30,380 bases of DNA. It comes from a virus. The notes below the pieces were generated by a model. That model was not told the DNA's origin. It saw only the letters and a program-made list of their open reading frames with translations, and did no database searches. Every line of letters begins with the position of its first letter. Position 1 is the first letter of the stretch. Positions 3,568-30,380 of the stretch are shown one piece after another. Made by a program: the position numbers and the translations under genes. The stretch spans positions 1-30,380 of IMG/VR virus record IMGVR_UViG_3300032462_000046, one strand, 5' to 3'.

Positions 3568-4055
3568 ATCAACATATAATAGCCTTTATCAACCAAGTCA
3601 TTCAACTTATCCAGATCACTTAATCTAGGATCATTTCTCAATGATGTCATATTTTCTTCAATATATGATCTATTGAGATCATATCTATTTTTCACATTCT
3701 CCTCAGTATCATTAAGAGGATATGACATTAAAATGTCAAAGTTATCACCATTCCATACACCAACTGACCAGTGTGTGTTATCACTAACCGATTTGGATGT
3801 ATTGGCATGTAATTTACCATTTGATTTGAAATTACAATGATCACTCATTCGGTATGTACCATCCAATGTTTTACCCCAATCCTTATCCTTACTATAATAA
3901 GAATGACTCCATGGACTCTTAGAGAAATAATTACCAAACTTTTTCATCATGAAGTCAACTATTCTACAATCAACACTCTTTGGTAAAAGACCAAATAATT
4001 GCATTTTAGGACGAGGACCTTTTTTAATAGATTCAATTAACTGGTGCTTTAACAT
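3504..4055 (-). CDS. Hypothetical protein, probable N-terminal part of a frameshifted gene
   Basis: The 183-aa frame starts MLKHQLIESIKKGPRPKMQL. Residues 1-160 look like ordinary soluble protein, with an aromatic-rich centre (PWSHSYYSKDKDW, then TYRMSDHCNFKSNGKLHANT and THWSVGVWNGDNFDI). The last 23 residues (from MLIWYHIVVV) change abruptly in character and look like out-of-frame translation, while the -1 frame from the same place continues as plausible protein in 2791-3567. The start codon lies inside a 20-bp palindrome shared with the divergent gp25 gene. The function is unknown. The real product may be the fused protein if the shift is a sequencing error or a recoding event. Confidence 0.7.
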   Translation of the reverse strand: MLKHQLIESIKKGPRPKMQLFGLLPKSVDCRIVDFMMKKFGNYFSKSPWSHSYYSKDKDWGKTLDGTYRMSDHCNFKSNGKLHANTSKSVSDNTHWSVGVWNGDNFDILMSYPLNDTEENVKNRYDLNRSYIEENMTSLRNDPRLSDLDKLNDLVDKGYYMLIWYHIVVVELMVNIRMLKWLG

Positions 4056-4072
4056 TTAATATATATTAAATG
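4053..4072. promoter_or_regulatory. Perfect 20-bp palindrome containing two divergent start codons
   Basis: The sequence CATTTAATATATATTAAATG is identical to its reverse complement. Its outer three bases are the start codons of the minus-strand gene (4055) and of gp25 (4070). Each strand therefore carries AATATATAT, three bases, then ATG. There is no room for a leader or Shine-Dalgarno sequence. I infer a bidirectional promoter giving leaderless or nearly leaderless transcripts; a protein-binding operator is also possible. Confidence 0.6.
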
Positions 4073-4447
4073 GGAGAATTTGATTTTAGAGATCTATACA
4101 TAGGATACGAAGGACATCCAAGGTTCCAAGTAAACAGGATTATAACTGATGATGCTATTCGAGTTATAGTACAGAAGTACGAAATGATATTATTCACTAA
4201 TAAAGGTGAATTATTAGGAGATCCTGAATTTGGATGTGATTTACAAATACTTCTACACCAAACCAAAGTATCTGCTAAAGCAACAAAAGCTATAATCAAC
4301 GAACAAATTGATGAGTATATTTCAGAATTGAATGGTACATCATACCAATTAGATGTTACCTTCCAACAAGATGTTGAAAACTATCAAGATATTATGGTAG
4401 TTGACTTCAAAGTAAGGGATATCGAAATACAAGCTGTTATCGTTTAA
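4070..4447 (+). CDS. 25: gp25-like baseplate wedge protein
   Basis: This 125-aa protein belongs to the GPW/gp25 family, a conserved baseplate wedge component of contractile injection systems that sits where sheath polymerisation starts. The family core is visible: a D-D-A-I-R-x-x-V-Q helix (residues 27-35), then ILFTNKGELLGDPEFGCDL (40-58), matching the usual T-x-x-G-E-x-x-x-x-P-x-F-G-C-x-L signature, then L-L (61-62). T4 gp25 is 132 aa, so this is full length. It begins three bases after an AATATATAT element and has no Shine-Dalgarno sequence. Its stop overlaps the stop of the giant minus-strand protein gene in a TTTAAA hexamer, so the two genes converge without a gap. Confidence 0.9.
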   Translation: MGEFDFRDLYIGYEGHPRFQVNRIITDDAIRVIVQKYEMILFTNKGELLGDPEFGCDLQILLHQTKVSAKATKAIINEQIDEYISELNGTSYQLDVTFQQDVENYQDIMVVDFKVRDIEIQAVIV

Positions 4448-7400
4448 ACATAAGTGGTTCCTAAAGTAGCATCAATATATTGCTTACTTGTTAAGTTACT
4501 AAATGCTTCTAATTCCTGTATATCCAGTATTCCTCTTATCTCATAATTTTTCTTATCACGATATGTTGCCCCATATCCATTTTCTGAAGTAACTTCAATA
4601 ACAAGGTATGGATCAATATTAGAATCTATTGTAAAATTATATGGTTTAAGATCCGAAATTCTTCTCCTTTCCGTTATATGTTGTATAGGGGTCATGTCAT
4701 ATTCCCTCCATTCAGTAATATCTACCCAATTTGAAGCAGTTGTTCCACTATCAAAAGATGGATTCACAAAAGAGGCTGTTGCTGTCGATACGGTTACACC
4801 CCAAGCACTGTAAGCATAATAATCCCTATCCTCTTTAACAATATCACCAAGATTATAGAATGTACCAGATTTCCAAGTTGATATATTTTGATATTTTCTT
4901 GGATTATTAGCCTTATTAGTGGGTATCATTGACTCATATAATTTATCCAAATAAACTATTTTCTCACCAATACCATATGTTTTCAAAGCATACCACTCAC
5001 GATATATTTCATAAGTAGATATATCAACAGTATAATAATCTGGATTATATGAATATGTTCCATATAGATAAAAATCTAATACACAGTTATAAACTGTTGA
5101 TCCATTATTAACAGGCATCAAATAGGTTTCATTCAACTTAAATGAGACCGGGTTTAGATTCTCACTAATTTTAATTATCTGTATTTCCTTAACACTATGT
5201 GATATTGTATTAACTCCAACAAAATCAGCTCTGCCAGTAATATCCAATATTTTATGTGTTATAGGTATAATATTAGATTGTAACCAATACTTTAAACCTT
5301 GTAATTTTGTCTGTATTTCCTGTAAAGTATAATTAAGTACATTATTACCCTCTCTATCAGTTATCCTATATGTCAAATTAAATAAGTTAGTCTCCTCATA
5401 ACTCTTATTAGGGAATGTGTGTTTTATAAAATCATTCTCTGTCCAACCCTCCACACTATTATCAAATATATCAGGTATTTCAACCTTGTATAATTTATCA
5501 TAACTTTCTGATAAAATATCCACATTCCTATAATATTCATAAAGCTCAAGATCGTTATATCCAAAATGGTTAATAGCGTTTATAATAGACTTATATGATC
5601 CTATATAGGGGTATATCATACTTCTCATAAGTATCATCTCCTTTCTCTTACTATTTAGGTATGTCCAATCAATACCCTCTTCTTTTATATCATATTCTTT
5701 ATAGATATAAACATCATCGGATGATATTAATTTACCAGTATTACCAAGTTCAATTTTATATCTTATATCTTCTATTTCTGTCTGTCCAAAAACATTAAAC
5801 CTACCTATCTCACGGTCCCACACCTTTAACCTAACAGACAAATAGGTAGTTGATCCATCTGATGGATAGTCACTAACAATGGATGTCTCAGGTGACAAAA
5901 CATCAACTGATTTAAAGTAGTCAAATGTTATCTCTCTTGAGTAAACATTTCTTATTTTTAATAAGTACCCATTATTATTTGAGATATACTGATTCCTTGA
6001 GTTAGTAATATCTGTTATAAACATAGCTACATGTTGGCCAGGTTTAAACCCTCTTGGTAATCCATCACTATCTGTTAGGAATATATCAGTTGATAATGGG
6101 GCTAATGATATCTTACCATATCTATCTCCTGTAATCGGGTCATCGATATGATCAATGGATATTATATTACTAACATCTTTTGTCACATCAATTGTGTAAT
6201 CTACATTTTCTTCTTGGTATAATTGTAATATACTCCTCAAGGCTCCCTCCTCAACTGAATTAAACCCAATAAATGTTTCGATTGGTTCTGGCACAATTGA
6301 ATAATCATCCTCATCATCAACCTTAGCAAGTATATGATCAATTCTACCAAATACAGTCTGTTGATACTCAGGTGATTTTACTTTATCCATATCCCTATTA
6401 GCTGTCAAATTAAGCCTTACTGTCTCCAATGGCTTATCCCCAGTGTATGATAGGACGCTAGATGTTGGTAACATATTACCAGAGAAATCATAGAGGAAGA
6501 ATTCCGGCACATTACCAGAAAACCATTTCCAGTAAAGATTTACATCAACATCATCATTGAAATTAGCCCTCGGTCTTCTTATATAGTCCCTTGTATGCAA
6601 CCATAGGTAGTTTCTCTCAATATAATCCGATGCCAATGTCCCATAATTACTCTCTGTTATAGAAATAGGTGGGCCAGAAGGAACTGTGATTATTGATAAT
6701 GTTATAGATGATACAACCTCAATTAATCTTTTTAGTGTAGGTTGTATAAACCACATACTATTTCTATCAGGATCCCATGTTAATTTTGTCGTATTTTCAC
6801 CAACATTCAATAGAACTTGCTCATTAAAATCACCGGTATTACTATTATAGATATCAATAGAAGCTGATAACGGGTCCTGATTAGAAATATAAACCTGTCC
6901 ATCATAATAATTAATTAATTGATAACCATAAGCAGTGGTAACCTCATTGTATTTATAAGTGTCATCTGAAATATCTAAAGCGGAAAACAAAGGATTATCA
7001 TTAGATATGTTAATAGAATCTATAGTATTATTAAAGATCATATCATTAAAACCACCAGTCAATACAAGTGGTATTGGAGTTACAGAGTTATTATCAATCT
7101 TATAGAGATTAACTGATCCATATACATATACCGATTCGTTCACACGATCATAAACCAATTTATCATTGGTTAGACCAGCAATAGTATATGTCGATTGAAT
7201 GGATCTAGATGATCCATTTATTCTATTAACATCTGTACCATTTCTTCTAGCAACATACATATCTTTTTCAAAATCATTAAAAACAAGATTATAAGAAGAT
7301 CCGGATATTGTCTGAACCAATACAGCATTATTATAAATTAAAACAGACGAATCTGTTGTAACATAAACATCACCATTATCAGTATTATAATCAAATGCAT

Positions 7401-10188
7401 ATGCATTTGAATGTGATGCACTAGAAACTAAATTATTAGTGAATGGATCTATCTGGTATATACCATTTAATGAGAGAGCGTATACATAGCTATCAACATC
7501 GTTAAATAATATCGAAATACTACTAGTGTTGCCATTTAAATCAATAGAATCGGTATATGAAGCGTTAATAGCATCATAAACAATAACATTATTATCCAAA
7601 ACCATTATAGTATTGGATAGTTGAATATATTTAATATCTACCATACTAGCGGTGCTAGCAACATATGAAGAGATATTATAAGTATTAACACTATATGTTA
7701 TAGAATTTATATATGTTGTAGTAAAGGATCCACCGAACTGTAATGAATTAAACATCCCCAACCCGGATGAAGTAGCGGACACACAAGCAGTCGCCCCAAA
7801 CCCACCATTAAAAGCAATTGTTAAGAACGGGGAAACATTACACAATGAAGATGTTGATCCCCAAAAAGGACCTTCGTAACTTAAATTAATTACTTCTGGC
7901 TCTAGATATAGTGAATTATATTCAACATTTTGTAATGGATAAACGGTGCCATTTATACCAACAACCATTCCGGTAGCAAATCCAGCATTTTCCAAGGATT
8001 GGTACTGTGATTGTGTTGCCGAAGCGGTTCCTAACAATATCTCATTCGATGTTATCAAAGCACCATGGTTTCCAGTAAATTTTTTAGATAGTTTATAATT
8101 GAAATCTCCTGGTAATGTTGAAAGTCCAGGACTTACAACAATATCACACCTCTGCCTCTGTGATTTTACCCTAAATTCTAATGTAGATGCGGCATTTTTA
8201 ACATATATCCCATAATTATCTAAAATATCATAATAATTATCTACCCAATTTTGCAATGTTTGAGATATATCAGGAGTCAAATGTGATATACCATAAGATC
8301 TATTGTTTACTTGTATATTGATATAGTTACCAATTCCAGGAACAACACCCTCGTTAGAGGGATCATAGAAGGTCAAATATGAATGTTCGATATAAAAATC
8401 TGCTGTTGATCCAACCTTCACATTGAACTCAAGTGGTATATTTGGATATTGAGTTGCTAAATTTATAGAGTTATAATAAGGTGATACCGATCCTATTGTT
8501 TGAAGTGTTGGTATAATACCCAATAATATAAGACCGACAGCATTATTAGAATACCAATTCCGTAGTGTCTTATGCATGCTTCTTTCCATATCAACAACTC
8601 CTGAGGAGTATAAAAATTCTACCTCTTCTTGGTATACTTCCTTGTTTATAGTAACAATTATACCATATTCATCAATATCAGTGAATACTACATTATAATC
8701 AAAGTTCTCACTTATATCATAGTTAAATTCCCTAACAATGCTTTCCTCAATTTCTATAGCGTTCTCATATATCTTATTCGTTGATCCAACCGCTGTCCCT
8801 GGCAATGCGGTTGTGTAAAAATTGACCATTGCATATTGTGTAGGGTAAATTAAATCCGCTACCAATCTACTGTTATTAATATCATAGTATATGTCTATAT
8901 TCAGTGATGATAAATCCTCTTTGAATCTATCAGCTGCTGATGCCAGTGTTACTGCTGATGAAAATGTATATGATTGTGAAAAATATAAATGATCATTTGT
9001 TAGATATATATCACCCTGTAACAAAGTTTCATTAACAGGTGTCTGAGCAAGTGGCAAATATGTAGGGTCTCCCCAAAATGTTGCGCTATCTGGGTTAGTA
9101 GATGATGTAGCATACCATGTGTGTGACAAAACACACTCACTTATTTGATTATTCCACATAACTTGGTCACCGATAACATAGTTAATTAAGTTAGCATTTC
9201 CCGTAAAGTTTGAAACATTATCAACGGTGAAGAATTGTGTATTCAATACAGAATTTATCACTTTGAACTGTATTCCTGGCTTTAATAATGTTGGTATGTC
9301 CGATGTGAATATTAATTTATCAGATGCGCCTACAAATTGAACACCTCCTTGGTAAACCATTGGTAAATCGGTCCTTGTGATAACCTCAATCTCAACATCC
9401 TGGTTCACACCAACAGATAACTCGTTTAGATAGTACTCAAAATGAACTATGTCCAATATATCCGGATTCTCAATAGTAACAACCTCTACATCTTCATAAT
9501 TACCACCTGGTTTGTATTCATCATTCTTGGATGTATTAACTATATTCAACTTTCTACCAGTGTACAATACATCATAAAATCCAGGCTCATTCCAATCTGG
9601 TGATAAATTATCAACAAATGTAGTTGAGTCAACATAATTATATATACCAATAACATCCATAGAGGAAACTGTTTGATTAACATAAGATGATGCTAAACCC
9701 CAAGGATAAGCAAAATTAAATGTCTGATTATCAACAAATGTTATTATCATTATAGCTCCTCTTTTAGTTGAAATAACAACATATGTCTGGTCAGTATTAG
9801 TAAACTCAAATATATTTGAGTTAAATCTAAAAACTGTACCAATTGGGAACTTTCTATGGAATTCATCACCATATACCCATTTAGAATAATAGTCTGGTTC
9901 TTGGTTAACAGGTTCAATACTAATTATTGATTGTATAAAATATTTAGAATTGTAGAAATTAATACCAAACTCATTAAATAGTTGAAACTTTCTAATAGTA
10001 AGATCTGGTGGATTGTCATACTCAAAAGCATCTAACTTCTGAAACATATAAATAGCCTGTGTCTTATAAGTATCACTAGAATTCTCGTGAAATATAACAT
10101 CACCCTCATATCTTCCAATAGTAGAGTTATAATTGTAATTTAGTGAGTGTCCTTCCTTGTCGAAGAATATAAGTGAATCATCAAGCAT
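4444..10188 (-). CDS. Giant modular tail/baseplate protein with beta-propeller-like region
   Basis: At 1914 aa this is the largest product here. Four zones can be described. Residues 1-840 are beta-rich with many Tyr, Asn, Ser and Thr. Residues about 845-1170 hold repeated units of the form V-Y-V/A-x-x-x-x-x-I-Y-x-I/D with D-N-G-D-V-Y-V-T, typical of a YVTN/NHL-like beta-propeller. Residues about 1200-1730 include YIGSYKSIINAINHFGYND, resembling baseplate-wedge proteins. Residues about 1733-1796 have two W-x-x-x-x-x-Y-x-x-G-(D/E)-x-V-x-x-x-x-x-x-Y units like type 3 chitin-binding modules. Its position next to gp25 and its size suggest a wedge or peripheral baseplate/fibre protein (gp7-like role), but I cannot assign a T4 homologue. 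Its ATG overlaps the end of the upstream HNH gene by 8 bases. Confidence 0.85.
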   Translation of the reverse strand: MLDDSLIFFDKEGHSLNYNYNSTIGRYEGDVIFHENSSDTYKTQAIYMFQKLDAFEYDNPPDLTIRKFQLFNEFGINFYNSKYFIQSIISIEPVNQEPDYYSKWVYGDEFHRKFPIGTVFRFNSNIFEFTNTDQTYVVISTKRGAIMIITFVDNQTFNFAYPWGLASSYVNQTVSSMDVIGIYNYVDSTTFVDNLSPDWNEPGFYDVLYTGRKLNIVNTSKNDEYKPGGNYEDVEVVTIENPDILDIVHFEYYLNELSVGVNQDVEIEVITRTDLPMVYQGGVQFVGASDKLIFTSDIPTLLKPGIQFKVINSVLNTQFFTVDNVSNFTGNANLINYVIGDQVMWNNQISECVLSHTWYATSSTNPDSATFWGDPTYLPLAQTPVNETLLQGDIYLTNDHLYFSQSYTFSSAVTLASAADRFKEDLSSLNIDIYYDINNSRLVADLIYPTQYAMVNFYTTALPGTAVGSTNKIYENAIEIEESIVREFNYDISENFDYNVVFTDIDEYGIIVTINKEVYQEEVEFLYSSGVVDMERSMHKTLRNWYSNNAVGLILLGIIPTLQTIGSVSPYYNSINLATQYPNIPLEFNVKVGSTADFYIEHSYLTFYDPSNEGVVPGIGNYINIQVNNRSYGISHLTPDISQTLQNWVDNYYDILDNYGIYVKNAASTLEFRVKSQRQRCDIVVSPGLSTLPGDFNYKLSKKFTGNHGALITSNEILLGTASATQSQYQSLENAGFATGMVVGINGTVYPLQNVEYNSLYLEPEVINLSYEGPFWGSTSSLCNVSPFLTIAFNGGFGATACVSATSSGLGMFNSLQFGGSFTTTYINSITYSVNTYNISSYVASTASMVDIKYIQLSNTIMVLDNNVIVYDAINASYTDSIDLNGNTSSISILFNDVDSYVYALSLNGIYQIDPFTNNLVSSASHSNAYAFDYNTDNGDVYVTTDSSVLIYNNAVLVQTISGSSYNLVFNDFEKDMYVARRNGTDVNRINGSSRSIQSTYTIAGLTNDKLVYDRVNESVYVYGSVNLYKIDNNSVTPIPLVLTGGFNDMIFNNTIDSINISNDNPLFSALDISDDTYKYNEVTTAYGYQLINYYDGQVYISNQDPLSASIDIYNSNTGDFNEQVLLNVGENTTKLTWDPDRNSMWFIQPTLKRLIEVVSSITLSIITVPSGPPISITESNYGTLASDYIERNYLWLHTRDYIRRPRANFNDDVDVNLYWKWFSGNVPEFFLYDFSGNMLPTSSVLSYTGDKPLETVRLNLTANRDMDKVKSPEYQQTVFGRIDHILAKVDDEDDYSIVPEPIETFIGFNSVEEGALRSILQLYQEENVDYTIDVTKDVSNIISIDHIDDPITGDRYGKISLAPLSTDIFLTDSDGLPRGFKPGQHVAMFITDITNSRNQYISNNNGYLLKIRNVYSREITFDYFKSVDVLSPETSIVSDYPSDGSTTYLSVRLKVWDREIGRFNVFGQTEIEDIRYKIELGNTGKLISSDDVYIYKEYDIKEEGIDWTYLNSKRKEMILMRSMIYPYIGSYKSIINAINHFGYNDLELYEYYRNVDILSESYDKLYKVEIPDIFDNSVEGWTENDFIKHTFPNKSYEETNLFNLTYRITDREGNNVLNYTLQEIQTKLQGLKYWLQSNIIPITHKILDITGRADFVGVNTISHSVKEIQIIKISENLNPVSFKLNETYLMPVNNGSTVYNCVLDFYLYGTYSYNPDYYTVDISTYEIYREWYALKTYGIGEKIVYLDKLYESMIPTNKANNPRKYQNISTWKSGTFYNLGDIVKEDRDYYAYSAWGVTVSTATASFVNPSFDSGTTASNWVDITEWREYDMTPIQHITERRRISDLKPYNFTIDSNIDPYLVIEVTSENGYGATYRDKKNYEIRGILDIQELEAFSNLTSKQYIDATLGTTYV

Positions 10189-10885
10189 TGTAATTATTTC
10201 CTTTTTTTAGATTATCCTCGGCCCATAAAGGTTGTAAATTATCCAAGGAATTGATAACACTTATTTTATCCGATTCTTGAAAACTAGATATTGGTCTTAT
10301 ATGATCAATATGCCAATCACCATAATTATCCCAAGACATACCATCAATAAACAAACCTTCTAAATGATTCCTTAATTGACCAGGTGAATATCCTAAAAGA
10401 TTGTTGGTTGTGTTCTTTTTATCGGTACCAATATGCGCTAATGACCTCTTTACTATATTTCTACAAAAAATATAATGTGGGTTATTCGATCCCCATATTC
10501 TAATATAATTTCTTCTCTTTAGGAGAAAATCACTATCATTCTTAATATCATTATAATATATATTTCTTTTTTCTAGAATACTATCTTTATTATCGTGGTA
10601 ATAATTACTAGACCTTTCTATAACGCTTTCAATATTATCATTATACCAACCCTTTCTATACTCTAATAGCCTATCTTTGTTATTCTCATAATACCTGGTT
10701 TGGTATTCTGGATTCTCATCTACCCATTTAGATCGGTATGATTTCATCTTTTCTTTGTTTGATTTCCTCCATTTCGCGCTAGCAATATTTTTACATTCTT
10801 TACAACTCGAAGAGTATTTACCGTTTCGAATTGAGAAAATGGAAAATTCTTTAACACATTTACATTTACTACACTGTTTAGACAT
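10181..10885 (-). CDS. HNH homing endonuclease
   Basis: A 234-aa free-standing HNH endonuclease of the kind found in phage genomes. The N-terminus has a CxxC...CxxC zinc-binding pair (residues 5-8 and 28-31), followed by a long basic helical region with repeated K/R-Y/W and N-K-D/E units (residues 35-145) that may contact DNA. The catalytic domain shows DWHIDHIRPIS (190-200) and then NLQPLWAEDNLKKGN (216-230), the His-Asn-Lys pattern. Its TGA lies 8 bases inside the following giant gene, so it probably inserted just upstream and kept that gene translated. A TATATAA element lies three bases before its ATG. No disrupted gene or intron ends are evident. Confidence 0.88.
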   Translation of the reverse strand: MSKQCSKCKCVKEFSIFSIRNGKYSSSCKECKNIASAKWRKSNKEKMKSYRSKWVDENPEYQTRYYENNKDRLLEYRKGWYNDNIESVIERSSNYYHDNKDSILEKRNIYYNDIKNDSDFLLKRRNYIRIWGSNNPHYIFCRNIVKRSLAHIGTDKKNTTNNLLGYSPGQLRNHLEGLFIDGMSWDNYGDWHIDHIRPISSFQESDKISVINSLDNLQPLWAEDNLKKGNNYNA

Positions 10886-10888
10886 TAA

Positions 10889-10897
10889 TTATATATA
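10889..10897 (-). promoter_or_regulatory. AATATATA-type element before HNH gene
   Basis: On the minus strand TATATATAA ends three bases before the ATG at 10885, the same spacing seen at 4053-4072, 16110, 17179, 18430 and 30192. It partly overlaps the plus-strand TATAAATA. Promoter function is inferred from recurrence and position. Confidence 0.45.
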
Positions 10898-10901
10898 AAT
10901 A
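10894..10901 (+). promoter_or_regulatory. TATAAATA, T4 late promoter-like octamer
   Basis: An exact match to the T4 late promoter -10 octamer TATAAATA lies 56 bases before the ATG of the peptidase-like gene at 10958. In T4 this octamer is read by host RNA polymerase carrying gp55 and gp33 and activated by the sliding clamp. AT-rich DNA will contain such octamers by chance, so the call depends on its intergenic position. Confidence 0.4.
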
Positions 10902-10957
10902 ACTGCCTATCATCTAAACAATTTTTATATTCCAATAATAATATATATATTTGTAAG

Positions 10958-13773: not shown

Positions 13774-15336
13774 TTAAAACCCCATTGGATCATAAATTAT
13801 ATACTCATATTTTATCTTACCACAGTCATATATTTTACTAAATTCTCCCATATTCTCAGATTCACTCAAGCCATTTTTAAATTTTGATTTTTTGAAATTT
13901 GATTTGTGTATCCTTTTGTCACCAACCACATATTTATAATCTGGATCGGTTTCATATAATTTATTAAATCCAAGATTTTCATATAATTTACCGAGACTCC
14001 ATGATTTATCAGCATAAGATATTATCCTATTAGGATTATAAACCTTTATAAAATAATTTATTAATTTCGATGCGCCACCAACCACGACATGGTTTGTTTT
14101 TGTACAAAATCTGTTTAAATTCCATTCATCACCTGATAATATTCCACGACCCTCAAAATGGTCAAATGTCATGAGTCCGACCATCTCACCGTCAAAAAAA
14201 AGTCCCAACTTTAAAGATGAATTGACCTTTCCTTGTATATGGTTCTCATTAAAAAATTCACTACATATTTTAGAATCCTTAACCTCTTCGATAACACATT
14301 TACGAGCAAATATCTTTTTTTCAGTTAAATTCAGTAAATTTCTTACCTGTGATCTGATTATATCAGTATTGTATTTCCAATCATCTTCCCAGATGTGGAT
14401 AATACGTATTTCCCTTTCTTTAAAATAATTAACCTTGTCCAAATGATATCTCTTATCCCGAAATTCCTCTGAATGCCAATATAATCCGTTATATTCAAAT
14501 CCAATATTCAAATCCGGTAAATAAACATATATTTCCAAACCATCCCTATATGATTGAATGATCTCACCATGATAAATACTGGATATATAATTATATAGTT
14601 CAAGCTCTCCCAGTGAGCAAGTATTATTTATAGGATAACACACAGTACATATAGGAGTTTTATTTTTAACCCTATCATTGAACATGGTTTTATGTATTTT
14701 AAATGTGTGATTAAAATCACTACATTTTATTTCTAAAACAGATCCGACTTCCTTATTTATAAATTCTAATGAATATTCAGATAGTTTGTTTTTCCAGTAA
14801 TTGATATGTCTATCAGTATTTGTTTCAATATTGCGAATAGTCATTGACCTGGAATTAATATCTCTCATAACGGGTCGTTGTGAATTATAATCAACCCCAT
14901 AATTTTCTTGGGTGGTATTTTTCTTTTTTAATTTAATATCATTTGATTGTGATATATTATCCACACCATATTTATCCTTTATTGTTTTTGATATACTGTC
15001 CTTGATGTCTTTATTTTCCAATACATATTCATGTCCATATTTTTTTAAATTTGTTTTTTTCCTTTTCTCTATGGTTTTAATTGAATTGGATTGGCACTTG
15101 GTTGAGCAATATTCTCGATACCCTAATTTAGCAGATATAAAGGAGACGTGGCCACCACAATAACATATTGGTTTAGAGGTGTTACTAATATATAGGTATA
15201 GTTTTTCCCTCCAACTGATATTATCAGATATATGTCTATCAACACATATATACTCATCCTCATAATTATCCATGAACCACTTAGAACTTCTAGTGGGATT
15301 TTTAGAAAAAATAATACCTATATGATCTGTCTTCAT
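13774..15336 (-). CDS. Full-length Vsr-like homing endonuclease (520 aa)
   Basis: A free-standing homing endonuclease with four visible parts. First, a zinc-binding CYCGG...CSTKC element (residues 58-81). Second, repeats of the type K-T-N-L-K-K-Y-G-x-x-x-x-x-x (residues 94-155, YGHEY, YGVDN, YGVDY). Third, a CTVCYP knuckle followed by a Vsr/EDxHD-like nuclease domain (about 245-335) with VYLPDLNIGFEYNGLYWHSE (271-290) and IWEDDW (315-320). Fourth, a C-terminal domain (about 343-480, ARKC...NHIQG...VVGGASKLINYF...LYENLGF) that looks acetyltransferase-like in pattern. It sits between the tail tube and the gp47 region, with AATATATAC four bases before its ATG. It is closely related in plan to the gene at 19315-21024. 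Confidence 0.87.
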   Translation of the reverse strand: MKTDHIGIIFSKNPTRSSKWFMDNYEDEYICVDRHISDNISWREKLYLYISNTSKPICYCGGHVSFISAKLGYREYCSTKCQSNSIKTIEKRKKTNLKKYGHEYVLENKDIKDSISKTIKDKYGVDNISQSNDIKLKKKNTTQENYGVDYNSQRPVMRDINSRSMTIRNIETNTDRHINYWKNKLSEYSLEFINKEVGSVLEIKCSDFNHTFKIHKTMFNDRVKNKTPICTVCYPINNTCSLGELELYNYISSIYHGEIIQSYRDGLEIYVYLPDLNIGFEYNGLYWHSEEFRDKRYHLDKVNYFKEREIRIIHIWEDDWKYNTDIIRSQVRNLLNLTEKKIFARKCVIEEVKDSKICSEFFNENHIQGKVNSSLKLGLFFDGEMVGLMTFDHFEGRGILSGDEWNLNRFCTKTNHVVVGGASKLINYFIKVYNPNRIISYADKSWSLGKLYENLGFNKLYETDPDYKYVVGDKRIHKSNFKKSKFKNGLSESENMGEFSKIYDCGKIKYEYIIYDPMGF

Positions 15337-15367
15337 ATAGGTATATATTCAAAAATTATCTACTTGA

Positions 15368-16013: not shown

Positions 16014-16021
16014 TATTTATA
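16014..16021 (-). promoter_or_regulatory. TATAAATA late promoter-like octamer before tail tube
   Basis: The minus strand reads TATATAAATAGAAAG here, containing the exact T4 late octamer, and ends 22 bases before the tail-tube ATG at 15991. The gene is a major virion protein, which is where such a promoter is expected. The leader is A-rich with no clear Shine-Dalgarno sequence. Confidence 0.55.
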
Positions 16022-16121
16022 TATTTAATAATATATTCCTCTTGTTTTATATATTAGTATAAAAAATCAACTTTTATTCAATATTAAGTAAAGGGTGATA
16101 CAAAAATCTAATATATACTAT

Positions 16122-16540
16122 ATGATAATAGAAAGAATATGTAATTATAGAAGGTGCAATAAACAATTAAATGGCAGGAAAGACAAAAAATTCTGTAATA
16201 GGGGATGCAAGGACATGGAACATACATATAGGAAAAGAAAATTATTCAAAATAAAAATATATCTACATGATTCTAAGTAAATCCGTGAAGTATGGTGGTA
16301 TAGGATTCCAATCCAAAGAATTATCTAAAAAGATCTCATTGGAGTGATGGTAATTTATATAAAAATCTTGGATTCAAAGAGATTAACAAGTCAAGACCAG
16401 ATTATAAATACCTTGTAAAGGATAAGAGAATACACAAATCAAGTTTCAAAAAATCAATAACTGGAGTGCCCGAATCTAAACTTGACATACCTAAAATATA
16501 TGATACTGGTAAATTAAAATATGAACTATTAATTCCTTAG
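16122..16540 (+). pseudogene. Decayed homing endonuclease remnant
   Basis: An ATG at 16122, three bases after AATATATAC, opens a 52-aa frame with a zinc-knuckle pattern (CNYRRC, then FCNRGC) ending at 16280. Downstream, a separate open stretch from 16304 to the TAG at 16540 reads SHWSDGNLYKNLGF, DYKYLVKDKRIHKSSFKKS and IYDTGKLKYELLIP, closely matching the last about 80 residues of the endonuclease at 13774-15336 (SWSLGKLYENLGF, DYKYVVGDKRIHKSNFKKS, IYDCGKIKYEYIIY). A different frame at 16306-16325 gives PIQRII, matching its NPNRII, so a frameshift lies near 16325. The nuclease core is absent. This is an internally deleted, frameshifted copy. The N-terminal piece could instead be an unrelated small zinc-finger gene. 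Confidence 0.8.
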
Positions 16541-17175
16541 ACCAAGCCCTTTATCTTTAACAAAGTATCAATTGATGGGAAATAATTTAACCCAACACCA
16601 ACTCTGGTTAAATGTGAATAAATATCTGAATAAAACTTATCTATCCTTTTTATCACATATTCCTTTTTATCACTATTATAATCTTGTATTTCTGTCTTGT
16701 TATATTGGTAATCCTTTATATCATCAACTGTGAATCTAGAACAAGCTCCCCCGATAATAACAGTCTTTTTACCAAATTTATCGAAGACAGATAGCTCATC
16801 ATTTAATGACAATAACTCATTGAATATTATATCTATAACCTCAGTATCCTCCATAAATATCCCAATCAAATTTTCGATCTCTTCTTCATCAAATCCAAAG
16901 GGCATCTTATAAACCCTTGATATTCCCTCAATACCGTGATTATCCTCAATCTCCTGTGATGGATATTTTGTCGGATAATAGATGTCTTCAATTGTATTAT
17001 CACCACTAGAATCATCTTTGAACTTTTTCAAAATCTCTCTAACAGCAACATAATCTGTTGAAGTAAATAACTCCCTAAGTCTCATAATATCTGTTTTATA
17101 CCTTTCAGGTGGCCATTCATCAGTATTTGATTCATTGATCAGTTTAAACTCTGAATACTTTTTAATAAGACGCAT
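16537..17175 (-). CDS. Hypothetical protein with capsid-targeting-like N-terminus
   Basis: A 212-aa acidic protein I cannot assign. The N-terminus MRLIKKYSEFKLINES resembles the short capsid-targeting peptides of T4 internal proteins (MKTYQEFIAE), which end in a hydrophobic-x-Glu site cut by the head protease; here the site would be after INE (residue 15). The rest is mixed alpha/beta with an acidic helix (FGFDEEEIENLIGIFMEDTE, about residues 92-112) and a KKTVIIGG strand (136-143). AATATATAG lies three bases before the ATG. Its stop overlaps the stop of the endonuclease remnant by three bases in convergent orientation. Packaging into the head is only a hypothesis. Confidence 0.7.
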   Translation of the reverse strand: MRLIKKYSEFKLINESNTDEWPPERYKTDIMRLRELFTSTDYVAVREILKKFKDDSSGDNTIEDIYYPTKYPSQEIEDNHGIEGISRVYKMPFGFDEEEIENLIGIFMEDTEVIDIIFNELLSLNDELSVFDKFGKKTVIIGGACSRFTVDDIKDYQYNKTEIQDYNSDKKEYVIKRIDKFYSDIYSHLTRVGVGLNYFPSIDTLLKIKGLV

Positions 17176-17178: not shown

Positions 17179-17187
17179 CTATATATT
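17179..17187 (-). promoter_or_regulatory. AATATATA-type element before 17175 gene
   Basis: The minus strand carries AATATATAG, then three bases, then the ATG at 17175, the spacing seen before several other genes in the window. Promoter or start-site function is inferred. Confidence 0.45.
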
Positions 17188-17241
17188 AATACAGGGGCGA
17201 GAAAAATTCCAATATATATCTGAAAATACACTAAACTTATA

Positions 17242-18177
17242 ATGTCAAAAGAAATTCCAAAACCGGAAAAGACTGAAGATGATTATCTTAAGGACCATTT
17301 ATCATCATTTGAATCACCTCTAAGATCAGATCCATCAACTAAAAAAGCTCCTAGTAGCTCAAGATCCACCGACTTACAGTTTATATCAGTTGATATAACT
17401 GAACTACCATGTGGTAATCTTTACCCAAGGGGCACATCACTAATGGTTAGATCCGCACAAGTAAGGGAAATACAATCATATTCAATGGTTGATGATAAAA
17501 ATATTTATGATATTTTTGAAAAAATGAATGACATGCTGAAATCGTGTGTTAGGATAAAATTCCCAGATGGTGAAATGGGTAGTTATTTAGATCTAAAGGA
17601 TCAAGATAGAATCTATACAATATTCCTAATAAGGGAATTAACCTTCCAACAAGGAAATACATTAGCTGTTGATGCTGAATGTGCTTGTGGATGTCAGAAC
17701 CAAATCGAATTAAAAAGGTCTAGTTTTAAATTCCACAAAATGGATGATAAAATCAGTAAATATTACAGTGAAAGAACAAATTCTTTCGTATTCAACATAT
17801 CAAATGGCAAAGAATTTGAGTTGACTGTTCCAAGTATAGGAATATCTAAATCATTCACCGAATATATTGTTAAGGAGAATATAGATAATAAGAAACCAAA
17901 CATGGCATTTCTAAAAATCATACCATATATGTTGGAGAACAGAAACTCTATTACATATGATGGCATAAAATCAAAATTAGTTATGTTCCAAGGACTGGAT
18001 GATATTTCATTCCAATTTCTAAATTCAGCAGTTAATAAAATGACACTTGGTGTTGAGGGTCTAAGAACTGAATGTACTGAGTGTGGTTTGGAGGTCCACA
18101 CTGAGATGACATTTCCCAACGGAGCGTCAGGTATTTTCGTTATTCATGATGCCTTTGAGGCATTTATTAAAGAATAA
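17242..18177 (+). CDS. gp26-type baseplate hub/assembly protein with zinc ribbon
   Basis: The 311-aa product fits the T4-type baseplate protein family that includes gp26. Its hallmark is a core opening with L-P-x-G-x-x-Y-P (ITELPCGNLYP, residues 52-62), then helices, then I-R-E-L-T-F-Q-Q-G (130-138) and a split zinc-ribbon-like set of cysteines: CACGC (147-151) and CTEC (278-281). T4 gp26 is shorter (208 aa); the first 45 residues here are a Ser/Pro/Lys-rich linker. A small gene overlaps its 3' end in the +1 frame, an arrangement reminiscent of tail-assembly gene pairs. AATATATATC precedes it by 24 bases. The gp26 label is moderately secure; the family is more secure than the exact T4 counterpart. 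Confidence 0.7.
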   Translation: MSKEIPKPEKTEDDYLKDHLSSFESPLRSDPSTKKAPSSSRSTDLQFISVDITELPCGNLYPRGTSLMVRSAQVREIQSYSMVDDKNIYDIFEKMNDMLKSCVRIKFPDGEMGSYLDLKDQDRIYTIFLIRELTFQQGNTLAVDAECACGCQNQIELKRSSFKFHKMDDKISKYYSERTNSFVFNISNGKEFELTVPSIGISKSFTEYIVKENIDNKKPNMAFLKIIPYMLENRNSITYDGIKSKLVMFQGLDDISFQFLNSAVNKMTLGVEGLRTECTECGLEVHTEMTFPNGASGIFVIHDAFEAFIKE

Positions 18178-18429: not shown

Positions 18430-18438
18430 AATATATAC
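18430..18438 (+). promoter_or_regulatory. AATATATAC element before truncated endonuclease
   Basis: AATATATAC lies three bases before the ATG at 18442. The identical nonamer and spacing precede the remnant at 16122, and a four-base spacing precedes the endonuclease at 15336. The mobile genes seem to carry this start signal with them. Confidence 0.45.
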
Positions 18439-18441: not shown

Positions 18442-19308
18442 ATGATATTATCGAAAAATATATTAATAAAAACATCACATAATAAAAAGTTAAAACATTA
18501 TAAAGCATTGGGATATGATATCTCATTGAAATATATAACGGTCAATATTGAACATCTCCCAAAATCTATAAGTGATTTAATACAAGTTAAGTGTGATTAC
18601 TGTGAACATATACATTATCGAAAAAATGTTGACTATAATCGCATAATTAATAAGAACATTGATGGAAAATATGCCTGCTCAAGAAAGTGTGGAATATTAA
18701 AATTCAAAGAAACTATAAAAAAAACCACTAAAAAACCACACCCAAATCTTGGTAAGAAAGTAGATAAAAATAAGTTAAGACATATCAACGATAAGAGGAA
18801 AAAAACAAATTTGGAAAAATATGGGGTTGAACATGTACTACAGAATGAATCAATTCAAAGGAAGTTTAAAAATACAAACTTAAATAGACATGGAGTTGAT
18901 AATTACTCAAAAACCGAGGAATTCATAATACAACAAAGGGTAAATAATATCGAAAAATATGGAGTTGATCATATATCACAAATAGATAGTGTTAAGGAGA
19001 AAATAAAACAAACAAACCTAATCAGATATGGTGTAATATCAACTTTAAATATTGAGAAATCAAACAAAAAAAGATTAGAAAAATTCCAATCTGAGGATTA
19101 TAGAAAAAATTATGAAATATCTAATCATAAAAATTATTTAAACTATCTAAACAATAGCATATCACTTTTTAAATGTGATTGTGGATGTGATCACAATTTC
19201 GAGATCAAATATGATAACTTCAAAAGTAGATCAATATTTAATATACCACTGTGTACAATATGCCACCCAATAAGTGACTCAAGTTCAATAAAAGAACAGG
19301 AGTTGTAG
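18442..19308 (+). pseudogene. Truncated homing endonuclease (N-terminal 288 aa)
   Basis: The product has the N-terminal architecture of the Vsr-like homing endonucleases in this window but no nuclease domain. It shows a zinc-binding CDYC...CSRKC (about residues 51-83), four K/N-x-x-x-x-(K/R)-(Y/H)-G-V repeats (YGVEHVLQ, HGVDNYSK, YGVDHISQ, YGVISTLN), and a CDCGC...CTIC knuckle near 247-272. It ends at SSIKEQEL then TAG, exactly where full-length relatives enter the nuclease domain (SLGELELYNYI, SISQIEIYNFI). The convergent full-length endonuclease gene ends six bases later, so the missing C-terminal half was probably lost when that gene arrived. It could still bind DNA. I call it a degraded gene, though the remaining frame is intact. 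Confidence 0.82.
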
Positions 19309-19314: not shown

Positions 19315-21024
19315 CTAAATGGGTAACCCTATATTATAAATCCATTTTTTATTCCCAGCATTATATACCCTATATCGACCAAGTTCTGACATTATCTCCT
19401 CCTCTGTCTTATTCTTATTATATCCAAGTTTTACTAATTTTTGTTTTCTCCAATTAAATCTGTGGCTTCTAATACCATCTATTACATACCAGTATCCTGG
19501 ATTAGATGTATGTGAATATTTGAACCCTAGTTTATTATATAAATCACCACTTGATATAAAGTTATCAGAATATGTCTCAATCCGAATTGGATGGTAATTT
19601 TTCAGAAAATATCTCATTACCTTGGAAGCCCCACCGACAACAACAGTATCTAATATACTACAAAATCTAGTAAGCTCATAGATGTCCTTATTGTCCCTAC
19701 CATTTTTACCACTGATTGGTAATCTTAATTTAGAAAATGTCATAAGGCTAACAATTTCATCATTATTATATATACCAATCCTTATAGAAGATTTACAATC
19801 TCCTTGTAAGTGATTGTTATATAGAAATGTCCTAGATTCTTTATAACTAACTTCTCTTATATCACATTTCCTGGCAAATATTCTATTAGATGTTTTCCCA
19901 ATTTTATTTAAAATAAGAGACTTAACTATATCTCTTTTTATATTCCATTCATCCTCCCATATTGAAATTAAAGTGACATTATTATTTTCTGATACACGGT
20001 ATTTATTTAAATGGTAGTCTTTACTTTTAAATTTTTCAGAATGCCACCAAACACCATTGAATTCAAATCCTATTTTTAATTCGGGTAAATATATATCTAT
20101 TTCATATTGGTTTAGTATACCTTTACAATCAAGTATAACATCACCATGATAATTCGATACGATAAAGTTATAAATCTCAATCTGTGATATTGACGCATTT
20201 TCTGAAATAGGAAAACAATTGGTACATATGCTATTATTTCTATTAACTCTATCATAGAACTGATAAGTTAATATTTCAAAATTTGAATCACAAGTATTGC
20301 AGTGAAATTCCAAATTTGTTGATACTCCCCTTTTAAAGTCAATGAAAATAAAATCTGAACTTATCTTACTCTCGATTCTTCTCTTATAATCCGTATAAAA
20401 AAAATCTATTGTTTTTTTGTGTATATCCTTGATCATCCATGGATGATCAACACCATATCTTTTTAGACTTGTGCGCCGGAAGGATTCTTTATATGAGCTA
20501 TTTTTAAATGATTCTATTCTCTTTTTTAATAATTCCTCGGATTTATTCGGATTATCAACACCATAGTTAGACATAAGAGTGTTTATAGACTTTTTTTGCA
20601 CATCAACACTGGACATAGGTGAATTACCACCATATTTCTTCTGATTCGTTTTAATTATTTTTTCTTTTATTTGGTCCGACTGTGCTGGTGATTTTGTTCC
20701 ATATTTCTTTAATGATTTTTCCTCCTTTATTTTTTTAATATCTGGATCAGAAGAAACACATTTATTTGAACAATATTCATAATATCCAATTGTTGAGTTT
20801 TTAAAATTAACAATATTATCACAATGTAAGTTTTTACACACTGGGTAATGATCAACTTCATTAACCGATAAATATACCTTTTCTTTAAAAGGAATTCCAA
20901 GAATATTATTATTATCACAATAATTAGTTATATAATCATACTCTTCTTTGTAATTCTTAATCACAAAAGATTCTTTTGACATCCTACCAGATGGGTCCGA
21001 ATTTTTAAACACTTCTAAATTCAT
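19315..21024 (-). CDS. Full-length Vsr-like homing endonuclease (569 aa)
   Basis: It has the same plan as the 520-aa endonuclease. Residues 63-89 form a zinc element (CKNLHCDN...CSNKC). Repeats of the type KKYGxxSP and RYGVDHPW span about 105-200. A CNTC...CTNC pair (242-270) precedes the nuclease domain at about 281-370, with IDIYLPELKIGFEFNGVWWH (309-328) and IWEDEW (355-360). The last part (about 383-530: ARKC, NHLQG, LMTFSK, RFC, VVGGASKVMRYF, YNKLGF) is the acetyltransferase-like C-terminal domain. I-Bth0305I is the known model for Vsr-fold homing nucleases. It lies downstream of the sheath terminator, so it needs its own start; GATATATAC lies 18 bases before its ATG. Confidence 0.88.
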   Translation of the reverse strand: MNLEVFKNSDPSGRMSKESFVIKNYKEEYDYITNYCDNNNILGIPFKEKVYLSVNEVDHYPVCKNLHCDNIVNFKNSTIGYYEYCSNKCVSSDPDIKKIKEEKSLKKYGTKSPAQSDQIKEKIIKTNQKKYGGNSPMSSVDVQKKSINTLMSNYGVDNPNKSEELLKKRIESFKNSSYKESFRRTSLKRYGVDHPWMIKDIHKKTIDFFYTDYKRRIESKISSDFIFIDFKRGVSTNLEFHCNTCDSNFEILTYQFYDRVNRNNSICTNCFPISENASISQIEIYNFIVSNYHGDVILDCKGILNQYEIDIYLPELKIGFEFNGVWWHSEKFKSKDYHLNKYRVSENNNVTLISIWEDEWNIKRDIVKSLILNKIGKTSNRIFARKCDIREVSYKESRTFLYNNHLQGDCKSSIRIGIYNNDEIVSLMTFSKLRLPISGKNGRDNKDIYELTRFCSILDTVVVGGASKVMRYFLKNYHPIRIETYSDNFISSGDLYNKLGFKYSHTSNPGYWYVIDGIRSHRFNWRKQKLVKLGYNKNKTEEEIMSELGRYRVYNAGNKKWIYNIGLPI

Positions 21025-21071
21025 AATAACATACCCTTTTATGTATATATCAAAGACACCTATCTCCCTAT

Positions 21072-25312: not shown

Positions 25313-25346
25313 AGTTTAAGTAATTTATTTTTATACAATTATGTAG

Positions 25347-25354
25347 TATATATA
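25347..25354 (-). promoter_or_regulatory. TATATATA element upstream of sheath gene
   Basis: The minus strand reads TTTTATATATACTACATAATTG here, 34 bases before the sheath ATG. It matches the TATATATAC element before other genes, at larger spacing. Late-promoter function is inferred. Confidence 0.4.
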
Positions 25355-25376
25355 AAAGAATAAAAGTGTAAAAAAT

Positions 25377-28834: not shown

Positions 28835-28859
28835 ATAATTTTTTAAGAAATTTACTATA

Positions 28860-28867
28860 TATATAAA
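28860..28867 (+). promoter_or_regulatory. TATAAATA octamer in divergent intergenic region
   Basis: TATATATATAAATAAA spans this site between the 965-aa gene (minus) and the 120-aa gene (plus). The exact octamer points rightward, 74 bases before the ATG at 28942. The same AT tract gives TTTATATATATAG on the other strand, 17-30 bases before 28834, so it may serve both directions. Confidence 0.42.
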
Positions 28868-28941
28868 TAAACCACAGTGTAAATTTGGCAAAACGGTATA
28901 TTCTCTGTATATTTAATGAACAACAAACAAACACTGTTAAG

Positions 28942-29304
28942 ATGAGAAATAAAAACATCATATCTATACACCTAAAGGCTTTCAAAACTGTTGAAGAATT
29001 CAAAGCTCTATTATCTGATAACAACATAACATTCTTATCACCAGAAAAATTAGCAGACGCTTTTGAGAAAGGCTGGAAAAAAGTATTTATCGACAAGTCT
29101 ACTGAAATTGTCATTGCTTATCTACACAGTGGTGCAAAAAAGATTAGCTTTGATGAAGAATTATTGGATGAATTAAATAACATGCCATCTATAGGTTTCT
29201 CAAAAGTAGAATTGACAATGGACTCTGTTTTGGACAAAATAAATGCTTATGGTATGGATTCTCTAAACAAAAGAGAAAAGGAATTTCTAAAAGTGGTTAA
29301 GTAA
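28942..29304 (+). CDS. Small protein with rhomboid-tail-like C-terminus
   Basis: I chose the ATG at 28942 (120 aa, MRNKNIISIHLKAFKTVEEF) over an upstream TTG at 28885 that would extend into the promoter region. The last 25 residues (SVLDKINAYGMDSLNKREKEFL) match the short motif I-L-D-K-I-x-x-x-G-x-x-S-L-x-x-x-E-K-x-F-L that ends many Bacteroidetes rhomboid-family membrane proteins (DUF6576-like). Here it is attached to a small soluble N-terminal part with no membrane segment. Function is unknown. A strong terminator follows 22 bases after the stop, marking a single-gene transcription unit. Confidence 0.75.
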   Translation: MRNKNIISIHLKAFKTVEEFKALLSDNNITFLSPEKLADAFEKGWKKVFIDKSTEIVIAYLHSGAKKISFDEELLDELNNMPSIGFSKVELTMDSVLDKINAYGMDSLNKREKEFLKVVK

Positions 29305-29326
29305 TCCATACTTATAATATAATGGC

Positions 29327-29359
29327 AAAAAAAACCTCGAAATATCGGGGGTTTTTTTT
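29327..29359 (+). terminator. Rho-independent terminator
   Basis: Eight A residues and CCTCGA pair, across an AATA loop, with TCGGGG and eight T residues (one T-G pair, one bulged G). It lies 22 bases after the stop of the 120-aa gene. The A run on the other side could also allow function in reverse. Confidence 0.9.
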
Positions 29360-29424
29360 ATTTTCTAAAAAAATCCACAACAACAGATTTTGCATCTAAA
29401 ATCTAATATATAAATTAATATTTT

Positions 29425-29715
29425 ATGAGATACACTAAACTAACCTATGGCGATAAGACCATAACCAACAATAAACACATTACAGAAATACTTTTAAGTA
29501 ATAAATTTTACTGGCTCATCGATTCAGAAATTGAAAATGCTGATATCGAGATAAATAATAATACCATTATATGGAATTCAGGCGAGTATTATACTGGCAA
29601 CTGGCATTATGGCATATTTAAAAACGGTGAATTTCATGGAAATTTTATAAATGGAATATTTGAAGACGGTAGATTTAAAGGAAAGTGGGTAAGCGGTATT
29701 AATCTTAATCAATAG
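29425..29715 (+). CDS. Small MORN-like repeat protein
   Basis: A 96-aa product whose second half is a chain of short beta units: GEYYTGNWHYGIFKNGEFHG then NGIFEDGRFKGKWVSG (residues about 53-91), of the form G-x-W/F-x-x-G-x-F-x-(N/D)-G-x-F-x-G. This resembles MORN-type or related pentapeptide-like beta-strand repeats common in phage hypothetical proteins. The first 45 residues form a head without recognisable motif. It follows the terminator and has AATATATAA 13 bases before its ATG, so it probably starts a new transcript. Function unknown. Confidence 0.7.
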   Translation: MRYTKLTYGDKTITNNKHITEILLSNKFYWLIDSEIENADIEINNNTIIWNSGEYYTGNWHYGIFKNGEFHGNFINGIFEDGRFKGKWVSGINLNQ

Positions 29716-29745
29716 TATAATTGATCGAAAAAATTAGTTTTTAAA

Positions 29746-30189
29746 ATGAGAGAAAAAAGAACTATGTTACATCCAAATAATATCTGGACATCAAAGGATA
29801 TAAATATAAGCTTTGAGTCAAATGATTATTATTTTGAGATAGGCGACCATGTAACAACAGATATATCAGAAGCAGTGTCATTAATGATACGATTAACTGA
29901 CTGGGATGATAATATATGGAATACAAAGATTAAGGATATAAATTTATATAACACAATTCCTAAAAATGCTTTATACTGGATGTCAGGAGGTGATGAAGAG
30001 TGGATGATAGAGGATAATTATATAAAGAGCTGGAATGAATGCTGTTCAGAATATCAAGAGGAATTTGGCATACCAATAATGAATATTTTGGAAAAATCTG
30101 AAACTCTAAAGGATGTTAGGGATGGATTTATAAAACAATTGAGTCTTGAAATACTATACGAATTCGCACTTAGTAGAGGAATATCATAA
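29746..30189 (+). CDS. Hypothetical protein
   Basis: A 147-aa acidic protein, rich in Trp, Asp, Glu and Asn (MREKRTMLHPNNIWTSKDIN at the start). A later ATG (29764) would give MLHPNNIW and is also possible. The C-terminal third (SETLKDVRDGFIKQLSLEILYE) is a probable helix. I see no motif or family. It follows the MORN-like gene by 30 bases on the same strand and likely shares its transcript. Confidence 0.65.
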   Translation: MREKRTMLHPNNIWTSKDINISFESNDYYFEIGDHVTTDISEAVSLMIRLTDWDDNIWNTKIKDINLYNTIPKNALYWMSGGDEEWMIEDNYIKSWNECCSEYQEEFGIPIMNILEKSETLKDVRDGFIKQLSLEILYEFALSRGIS

Positions 30190-30191
30190 TC

Positions 30192-30200
30192 TATATATAA
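30192..30200 (+). promoter_or_regulatory. TATATATAA element before last gene
   Basis: TATATATAA ends three bases before the ATG at 30204, repeating the spacing seen at other genes. It may be a promoter giving a leaderless transcript. Confidence 0.42.
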
Positions 30201-30203
30201 CTC

Positions 30204-30380
30204 ATGTTATCCTATAAAAAATTCTTTGAATCCAAACAGGAAATAGATTCCATCTGTAGAAAATATGGAATCCAAGACTATACAATAAATCCTGATGAAT
30301 CGATCGATGTTGACGGAGATGTTGATTTATCTAGTAGAGAATTAAAAAAGATTCCCCTGAAATTCCGAAACGTCCGTGGT
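30204..30380 (+). CDS. Leucine-rich-like repeat protein, N-terminal part only
   Basis: An open frame of 59 codons runs from the ATG at 30204 to the right edge without a stop. It starts MLSYKKFFESKQEIDSICRK and continues INPDESIDVDGDVDLSSREL, KKIPLKFRNVRG. The pattern V-D-G-D-V-D-L-S-x-x-x-L-x-x-I-P-x-x-F is a common opening of phage proteins that go on with leucine-rich-like repeats, so I expect repeats beyond the window. The short N-terminal part (SYKKFFES) vaguely resembles the start of the 16537-17175 product. Function unknown. Confidence 0.7.
   Translation, partial: MLSYKKFFESKQEIDSICRKYGIQDYTINPDESIDVDGDVDLSSRELKKIPLKFRNVRG

Follow-up and report, generated by a model that had tools for sequence, protein, structure and literature searches.

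Leaderless genes of bacteria and the late promoters of phage T4 are among the described systems closest to the case reported here. In Deinococcus-Thermus and Actinobacteria, leaderless genes have a TA-like box about 10-12 bp before the start codon and no Shine-Dalgarno sequence, the box being of the cellular TANNNT, sigma-70 type (PMC3160421 and PMC12340547, in the portions used here), and a T4 late promoter is a short TATA box with no -35 element and with AT-rich sequence just downstream (PMC2988020, likewise in part). In Bacteroidetes leaderless mRNA is rare according to published passages, which give 3.7% of 5' untranslated regions (UTRs) as shorter than 10 nt in B. thetaiotaomicron and 5.5% of mRNAs as leaderless in F. 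psychrophilum. Here we describe an element with the core TTAATATATA (TTA-A-TATATA) in a 30,380-nucleotide virus record (IMG/VR record IMGVR_UViG_3300032462_000046; this whole 30.4-kb stretch is called the window) and in large phages related to it. The original prediction, made from the window, held that the element stands at a fixed short distance before start codons and, if it acts as a -10 box, might give leaderless late transcripts. The sequences support that reading: a gp55-type promoter that makes leaderless mRNA is in our judgement the best explanation (probability about 0.75), and we infer that gp55 is the reader, that transcripts begin at the AUG and late in infection, and that translation proceeds from this 5'-terminal AUG.

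The window encodes a 1399-aa tail sheath, a tube-like protein and a gp25-like baseplate wedge protein, together with a clamp loader, an SbcD-like nuclease and several homing endonuclease genes. Its sheath is 54% identical over the full length to that of LR745206 (634 kb) and 53% identical to that of LR756502 (642 kb), the next matches being, in order, LR756504 (636 kb), LR756501 (735 kb), LR756500 (462 kb), Lak and flavobacterial phages. Judged by such matches, the window is one piece of a genome related to those of the 634-735-kb "Mahaphages", a clade for which Bacteroidetes are predicted as hosts in a section of PMC7162821. LR745206, LR756502, LR756504 and LR756501 are called W01, W02, W03 and W04 below, and sets of four values follow that order. 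Huge phages with possible S1 proteins rarely have Shine-Dalgarno sequences (Al-Shayeb et al. 2020, PMC7162821, as stated in one of its passages), and the element bears on how huge phages lacking these sequences start translation.

Spacing of the element at genome scale

Open reading frames (ORFs) of at least 80 aa were taken from their first ATG under a greedy overlap rule, which gave 757 genes in W01, 786 in W02, 466 in W03 (400 of 636 kb) and 782 in W04 (720 kb), a total of 2,791; ORFs cut by the end of a piece or starting fewer than 60 bases from it (80 or 90 in some logos) were dropped from the counts. In all four genomes the distance from the hexamer TATATA to the ATG is bimodal, peaking sharply at 4-5 bases and again, more broadly, at 17-28. 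The onset at 4 is abrupt, with 50 genes at 4 and 29 at 5 in W01, 57 and 36 in W02, and 19 and 13 in W03; W04 begins at 5 instead (3 at 4, 35 at 5), and the trough and the second mode follow in every genome. Spacing 4-5 is found at 79, 93, 32 and 38 genes, where shuffles average 5.8, 6.3, 3.5 and 2.9 and reach at most 14, 14, 11 and 8 among 200. Spacing 17-28 is found at 104, 110, 62 and 106 (shuffle means 29.8, 32.0, 18.1 and 15.2), and between the modes, at 9-15, W01-W03 are at chance level with 17, 16 and 11 genes (means 18.1, 19.0 and 10.3). The motif search against a shuffled background that the original prediction had proposed, run on these four large relatives, thus places spacing 4-5 far above the shuffles.

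Genes with the hexamer at 4-6 are called close-mode below and those with it at 17-28 leadered. Close-mode genes, predicted to be leaderless, make up 88/185, 113/216, 35/94 and 41/146 of the genes in either class, chance matches included. Internal in-frame ATGs carry a close element in 8/3025, 14/3280, 2/1729 and 4/3721 cases (28/11,755 together). By start codon, in-frame candidates have it at 262/4228 ATG, 9/586 GTG and 2/1198 TTG codons, a comparison biased toward ATG by the calling of ORFs from ATG. Among further relatives in IMG/VR, with duplicate upstreams removed, the hexamer has spacing 4 at 60 and spacing 5 at 48 of the 698 genes near the gp55-like gene, and at 34 and 17 of the 627 near the sheath gene, the two sets having some contigs in common. 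In stretches sampled from other phages, the hexamer at 4-6 was seen in 1/145 genes of LR756500 samples, 0/40 of pT24, 0/43 of MA9V-1, 0/42 of MaF61 and 0/49 of the T4 late region; a Lak-A1 sample had 4/102.

The spacing class tends to stay with the gene. W01 and W02 share 333 reciprocal best pairs with a median identity of 55%; both members are close in 21 pairs (5.2 expected) and leadered in 31 (9.1 expected), and 8 pairs switch class. The gp25-like gene has spacing 4-6 in 23/26 distinct relatives (43-64% identity) and 8 in two; ortholog rows with N-termini off by more than 6 residues were excluded, which removed one (W04) of the 27 distinct gp25-like rows. In W03 this gene has no close hexamer and AAGGAG in its place. 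In the 23 upstreams, chosen for their hexamer, the four bases before the hexamer are 78-100% alike and positions -25 to -5 reach 35-70%. Sheath relatives have the hexamer at 22-32 in 42/42 cases. Other genes are mixed, the SbcD-like gene having no hexamer inside 60 bases in 25/32 relatives. A predicted leaderless promoter class is thus kept gene by gene in much of the largest-phage clade, and its mechanism is well supported by sequence.

The gene at 1026-1757(-) has the hexamer at 4-6 in 22/31 relatives; in the window, CAGGAG precedes its ATG and the nearest hexamer lies 46 bases away. On this alignment the gene is a natural switch between a predicted leaderless and a Shine-Dalgarno-like start, and the W03 gp25-like gene is the reverse exception.

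Promoter, translation signal or chance

In the mechanism that we propose, TTAATATATA would be the -10-type promoter element of these phages, read most likely by host core RNA polymerase with a phage T4 gp55-like sigma and no -35 element. The first transcribed base would be an A, some five to six bases past the hexamer. With the ATG four to six bases past the hexamer, this start would coincide with the A of the AUG or lie no more than a base or two from it and the mRNA would be leaderless, whereas with the ATG 17-28 bases past it the mRNA would carry a short A-rich leader.

The arrangement of genes carries this reading. Across the four genomes a hexamer at 4-6 precedes 118/654 divergent genes and 1/614 genes with an overlapping or directly abutting neighbour upstream on the same strand, which is the behaviour of a promoter insofar as gene order reveals it. 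Few hexamers are expected upstream of overlapping genes because those upstreams are coding; the point is that their starts manage without the element, at a rate about that of internal ATGs. Where a gap separates same-strand genes, the counts are 46/474 (1-20 bases), 57/326 (21-60) and 43/603 (more). The core is common to the two modes. Leadered sites have an A five bases past the hexamer in 77, 76, 92 and 77% of cases; at close sites this place, or the next base, holds the A of the ATG. In W01 (47 genes) and W02 (54), the 4-5 peak is found again by a matrix trained solely on the leadered sites of the genome. W04 has a close element unlike that of its relatives, TATATAG at a strict spacing of 5, with a pyrimidine directly before the ATG (61% T, 32% C) that resembles a -1 Y/+1 A initiator. 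Operon-like neighbours follow close-mode and leadered genes about equally often (W01 30/86 and 31/91, W02 35/108 and 34/98, W04 15/38 and 44/99). Shine-Dalgarno sequences are absent from close-mode genes in W01 (0/79) and W04 (0/38), a result partly forced by the hexamer occupying that place.

A gp55-like protein of 121-134 aa is encoded in all four genomes. In W01-W03 it matches phrog_234 (E 1e-9 to 2e-5) in a search at an E<=1 limit in which 7/14 control genomes matched too; the W04 protein, missed by phrog_234, was found with the family profile (E 8e-33). A profile built without T4 had T4 gp55 as its sole PDB match (E 2.1e-6), and an AlphaFold model of the protein had a mean pLDDT of 51. 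The protein is also encoded in LR756500, Lak-A1, pT24, MA9V-1 and, weakly, MaF61. As it occurs in phages whose samples showed no close mode, the close spacing rather than the sigma looks like the derived trait. Late timing is suggested by the use of the element by sheath, tube and baseplate genes, together with the gp55-like sigma gene.

Chance in AT-rich DNA combined with gene calling might account for the few sites in the window taken alone, the more so as the 26-gene list used there was compiled with the finding known. The shuffles run on mechanically listed genes of four genomes, the low counts at internal in-frame ATGs and the gp25-like orthologs aligned at their N-termini refute it at genome scale, and we give it practically no weight. 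The alternative named in the original prediction is an AT-rich translation-start signal that aids initiation without a Shine-Dalgarno sequence, the transcripts beginning further upstream. It would explain the tight spacing to the ATG in genomes where Shine-Dalgarno-like sequences are rare. Yet overlapping genes need translation too and do without the element, the same core lies 17-28 bases upstream of other genes with both positions filled in 18/2,791, and the onset is sharp at 4 or 5, not a graded AT preference, all of which makes this alternative highly improbable. An unlikely but somewhat stronger competitor is a leaderless promoter with another reader, either an ECF-like or other sigma-70-type protein of the phage or the primary sigma of the host, used early or in the middle of infection. 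The four genomes do encode further proteins with sigma-70 region 2. Of ten conserved close-mode W01 proteins compared with Pfam, five scored above cut-off (a DNA methylase and a second methyltransferase, topoisomerase IV subunit A, an M28 peptidase and a 2H phosphoesterase), and the topoisomerase and methylase genes, predicted to be leaderless, are unlike classical late genes. Against such a reader are the use of the element by sheath, tube and baseplate genes and the sequence upstream of it. In W01 and W02 (172 close sites, 214 leadered ones), positions -36 to -23 from the hexamer hold at most 0.06 bits, A is weakly preferred at -15 and -20, and TTGACA occurs at 0 and 2 sites, so that there is no -35 element, as in the T4 late promoters described in parts of PMC2988020. 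The Bacteroidota primary sigma box, given as TAnnTTTG in the source excerpts, was not seen either: TTTG occurs at no more than 4/172 and 7/214 sites at any single upstream position and is missing from the downstream logos.

Several observations weigh against a gp55-type leaderless promoter. Besides the additional sigma-70-like proteins and the topoisomerase and methylase genes, these include the close-mode genes that start only 1-20 bases past a same-strand gene. The W04 trough at 9-15 exceeds chance (26 genes, shuffle mean 9.3, largest shuffle 16), the A run at W04 leadered sites peaks one to three bases later (84, 85, 83%), and the leadered-site matrix finds just 4 genes at spacing 5 in that genome. 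The close/close excess among orthologs is small with W03 (4 vs 1.3 and 4 vs 0.7 expected) and at chance with W04 (2 vs 0.8, 1 vs 1.0 and, for W03/W04, 0 vs 0.2). Finally, the gp55-like protein is present in phages without a close mode in their samples, and only the T4 precedent ties it to the element.

Element sites in the window and the N-terminal tag

All eight genes that the original prediction listed do carry the element (Table 1), with small corrections. Its spacing of three bases (four at 15336(-)) holds for a nonamer that includes one further base; TATATA itself ends four bases before the ATG at seven genes and five before it at 15336(-). Hence the window has no match to the literal string of octamer AATATATA, three bases and ATG. 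The sites at 10885(-) and 30204(+) are variants (TTATATATA and CTATATATA). As 4055(-) and 4070(+) use one palindrome, the independent sites number seven, not eight. That most of these genes have no Shine-Dalgarno sequence is right, yet it is the general rule in W01 and W04, where AGGA, GGAG or GAGG precedes 24/757 and 62/782 starts, and is not special to these genes.

In the 26-gene list, compiled by hand, TATATA lies at spacing 3-5 in 8 genes; when their 40-base upstreams were put through 2000 dinucleotide shuffles, the mean was 0.48 and the maximum 4. A mechanical list (ORFs of at least 80 aa, first ATG) has 6/23 at spacing 4-5, and other ATGs in the window have TATATA at 3-5 in 11/1208 cases. 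The octamer AATATATA occurs 20 times where 11.5 are expected, a number reached in 2/100 shuffles; over-representation is thus mild, and the signal is position, not abundance.

Table 1 Sites of the element and associated features in the window
Feature	Position	Strand	Remark
14-bp palindrome TTAATATATATTAA	4056..4069		fills the gap between divergent starts 4055(-) and 4070(+)
TATATA within the palindrome	4060-4065		four bases from either ATG
gp25-like baseplate wedge gene	4070..4447	+	predicted leaderless
TATATA, ATG four bases on	10890..10895	-	endonuclease VII-like gene 10181-10885
TATATA, ATG five bases on	15342..15347	-	homing endonuclease gene 13774-15336
TATATA, ATG four bases on	16112..16117	+	52-aa ORF 16122-16280
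TATATA, ATG four bases on	17180..17185	-	gene 16537-17175, product with capsid-targeting-like tag
TATATA, ATG four bases on	18432..18437	+	gene 18442-19308 (partial homing endonuclease family match)
TATATA, ATG four bases on	30194..30199	+	gene at 30204, runs off the window, begins MLSYKKFFES
TATATA 34 bases upstream of sheath gene	25347..25352	-	predicted leadered use
TATATA 26 bases upstream of tube-like gene	16018..16023	-	predicted leadered use
TATATA 23 bases upstream of gene 17242-18177	17213..17218	+	predicted leadered use
TATATA 22 bases upstream of clamp loader gene 1832-2788	1804..1809	+	predicted leadered use
TATATA 19 bases upstream of homing endonuclease gene 19315-21024	21044..21049	-	predicted leadered use
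TATATA 18 bases upstream of gene 1-957 (open at window end)	976..981	-	predicted leadered use

Two-way palindromic promoters were considered as a genome-wide device and rejected. Gene calls gave seven gene pairs with this arrangement, and the pattern CAT..TATATA..ATG, found 5, 9, 4 and 0 times, is not enriched over five shuffles per genome (1-6, 2-6, 2-5 and 0-6), W02 perhaps excepted.

Four homing or HNH-type endonuclease genes lie in the window (those ending or starting at 10885, 15336, 18442 and 21024 in Table 1). Three of them are close-mode, and the one at 18442-19308 matches only part of its family. A second contig, IMGVR_UViG_3300027976_000073, is 99% identical to the window sheath at residues 383-1399 and has the 17175 gene as well, 100% identical and with the same upstream.

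Proteins of close-mode genes often start like MKYLKxYKIFES or MIKKYLQFIKEA, a tag of about 11 residues found on many otherwise different proteins and, in the window, on the products of 17175(-), 30204(+) and 25937(-). A loose pattern for the tag, composed after these N-termini had been inspected, matches 35/88, 44/113, 14/35 and 20/41 close-mode proteins, 19/97, 18/103, 17/59 and 24/105 leadered, 33/188, 36/175, 5/74 and 40/164 overlapping, and 59/384, 55/395, 26/298 and 65/472 unclassified ones, as well as about 7% of internal-Met windows. The site [ILF]xE[ASGN], with its E at residues 8-18, is present in 67/236 close, 37/259 leadered, 58/437 overlapping and 78/1077 unclassified proteins of W01-W03, and the position of the glutamate peaks at residue 11. 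The tag is enriched in close-mode genes; as overlapping genes also have it, it is a feature of the peptide and not a leaderless start signal. It resembles the capsid-targeting sequence of T4 with its L/I-x-E cut site; T4 gp21 cleaves after L/I-x-E, and ten residues suffice for targeting (PMC9026906, in the part used here). A prohead-protease match was found in 7/7 genomes searched, above the family cut-off in 3 and below it in all of W01-W04. Each phage would have dozens of candidate head-internal, tagged proteins.

On the translation side, bS21 is encoded in 4/4 genomes and S1-domain proteins in 6/6 genomes searched. IF3 is found, among the four, only in W03 (LR756504:110044) and W04 (LR756501:50202), which have the lowest close-mode shares given above. 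In E. coli, leaderless mRNA is disfavoured by IF3, and the distribution in these four genomes fits such an effect. IF2 was rejected as a phage aid to leaderless translation, six genomes having one sub-threshold match with stops and none above cut-off. A wider proposal is that the largest phages run a separate leaderless channel, with a gp55-type promoter fused to the start codon and ribosomes altered by phage bS21, S1-domain proteins and in some cases IF3, mainly for capsid-tagged, head-packed cassettes and in hosts that hardly use leaderless mRNA; we regard this as a doubtful conjecture.

Comparison with known systems

Should the gp55-type leaderless promoter be real, RNA would begin right at the first codon in many genes, a layout that the probable hosts seldom use; 5' ends and start codons of these genomes would be predictable from sequence, and leaderless translation would become testable in Bacteroidota. 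As far as our limited literature searches show, such a promoter class is new as a combination; among the matches listed, no paper dealt with leaderless expression in these phages, which is weak evidence of absence.

Thermus phage phiYS40 reportedly expresses many genes from leaderless mRNAs, among its middle and late transcripts. Unlike the present phages, it has a host that uses leaderless genes widely, and we know of no gp55-type element in it. Its first 50 kb (a third of the genome), taken as a positive control for the method, showed no more than a weak TA...T peak, with 8 of 55 genes at spacing 6. The giant phages phiKZ and AR9 are alike in having short AT-rich late promoters, where the G of the phiKZ late TATG is the start site and AR9 leaders measure 26-491 nt (PMC5312081, in part), and unlike in encoding multisubunit RNA polymerases, since no match to RNA polymerase beta' was found in the four genomes here. 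With the bacterial leaderless genes described at the outset, W01-W04 share a TA-like box that begins about 10 bp before the start codon and exceeds the shuffled background, but as TATATA, not TANNNT, and in phages with predicted Bacteroidetes hosts.

T4 late promoters are served by gp55, gp33 and gp45, need gp33 and the sliding clamp, and start one helical turn downstream of the box. The T4 late system offers a parallel in its promoter layout, in the gp55 homolog and in the sheath, tube and baseplate genes that stand under the element here. It differs in its box, which here has the core TTAATATATA and the form (A)ATATATA; the T4 consensus TATAAATA was tried as the element and has no positional peak in W01-W04. 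That T4 late promoters sit further upstream, as the original prediction had remarked, is borne out by the T4 late region, where, among 49 genes, 11 sites of TATAAATA lie at 14-28 bases from the start and none is closer. As the box is a variant, differing from TATAAATA, we describe the element as one that probably works like a T4-type gp55 promoter rather than calling it one.

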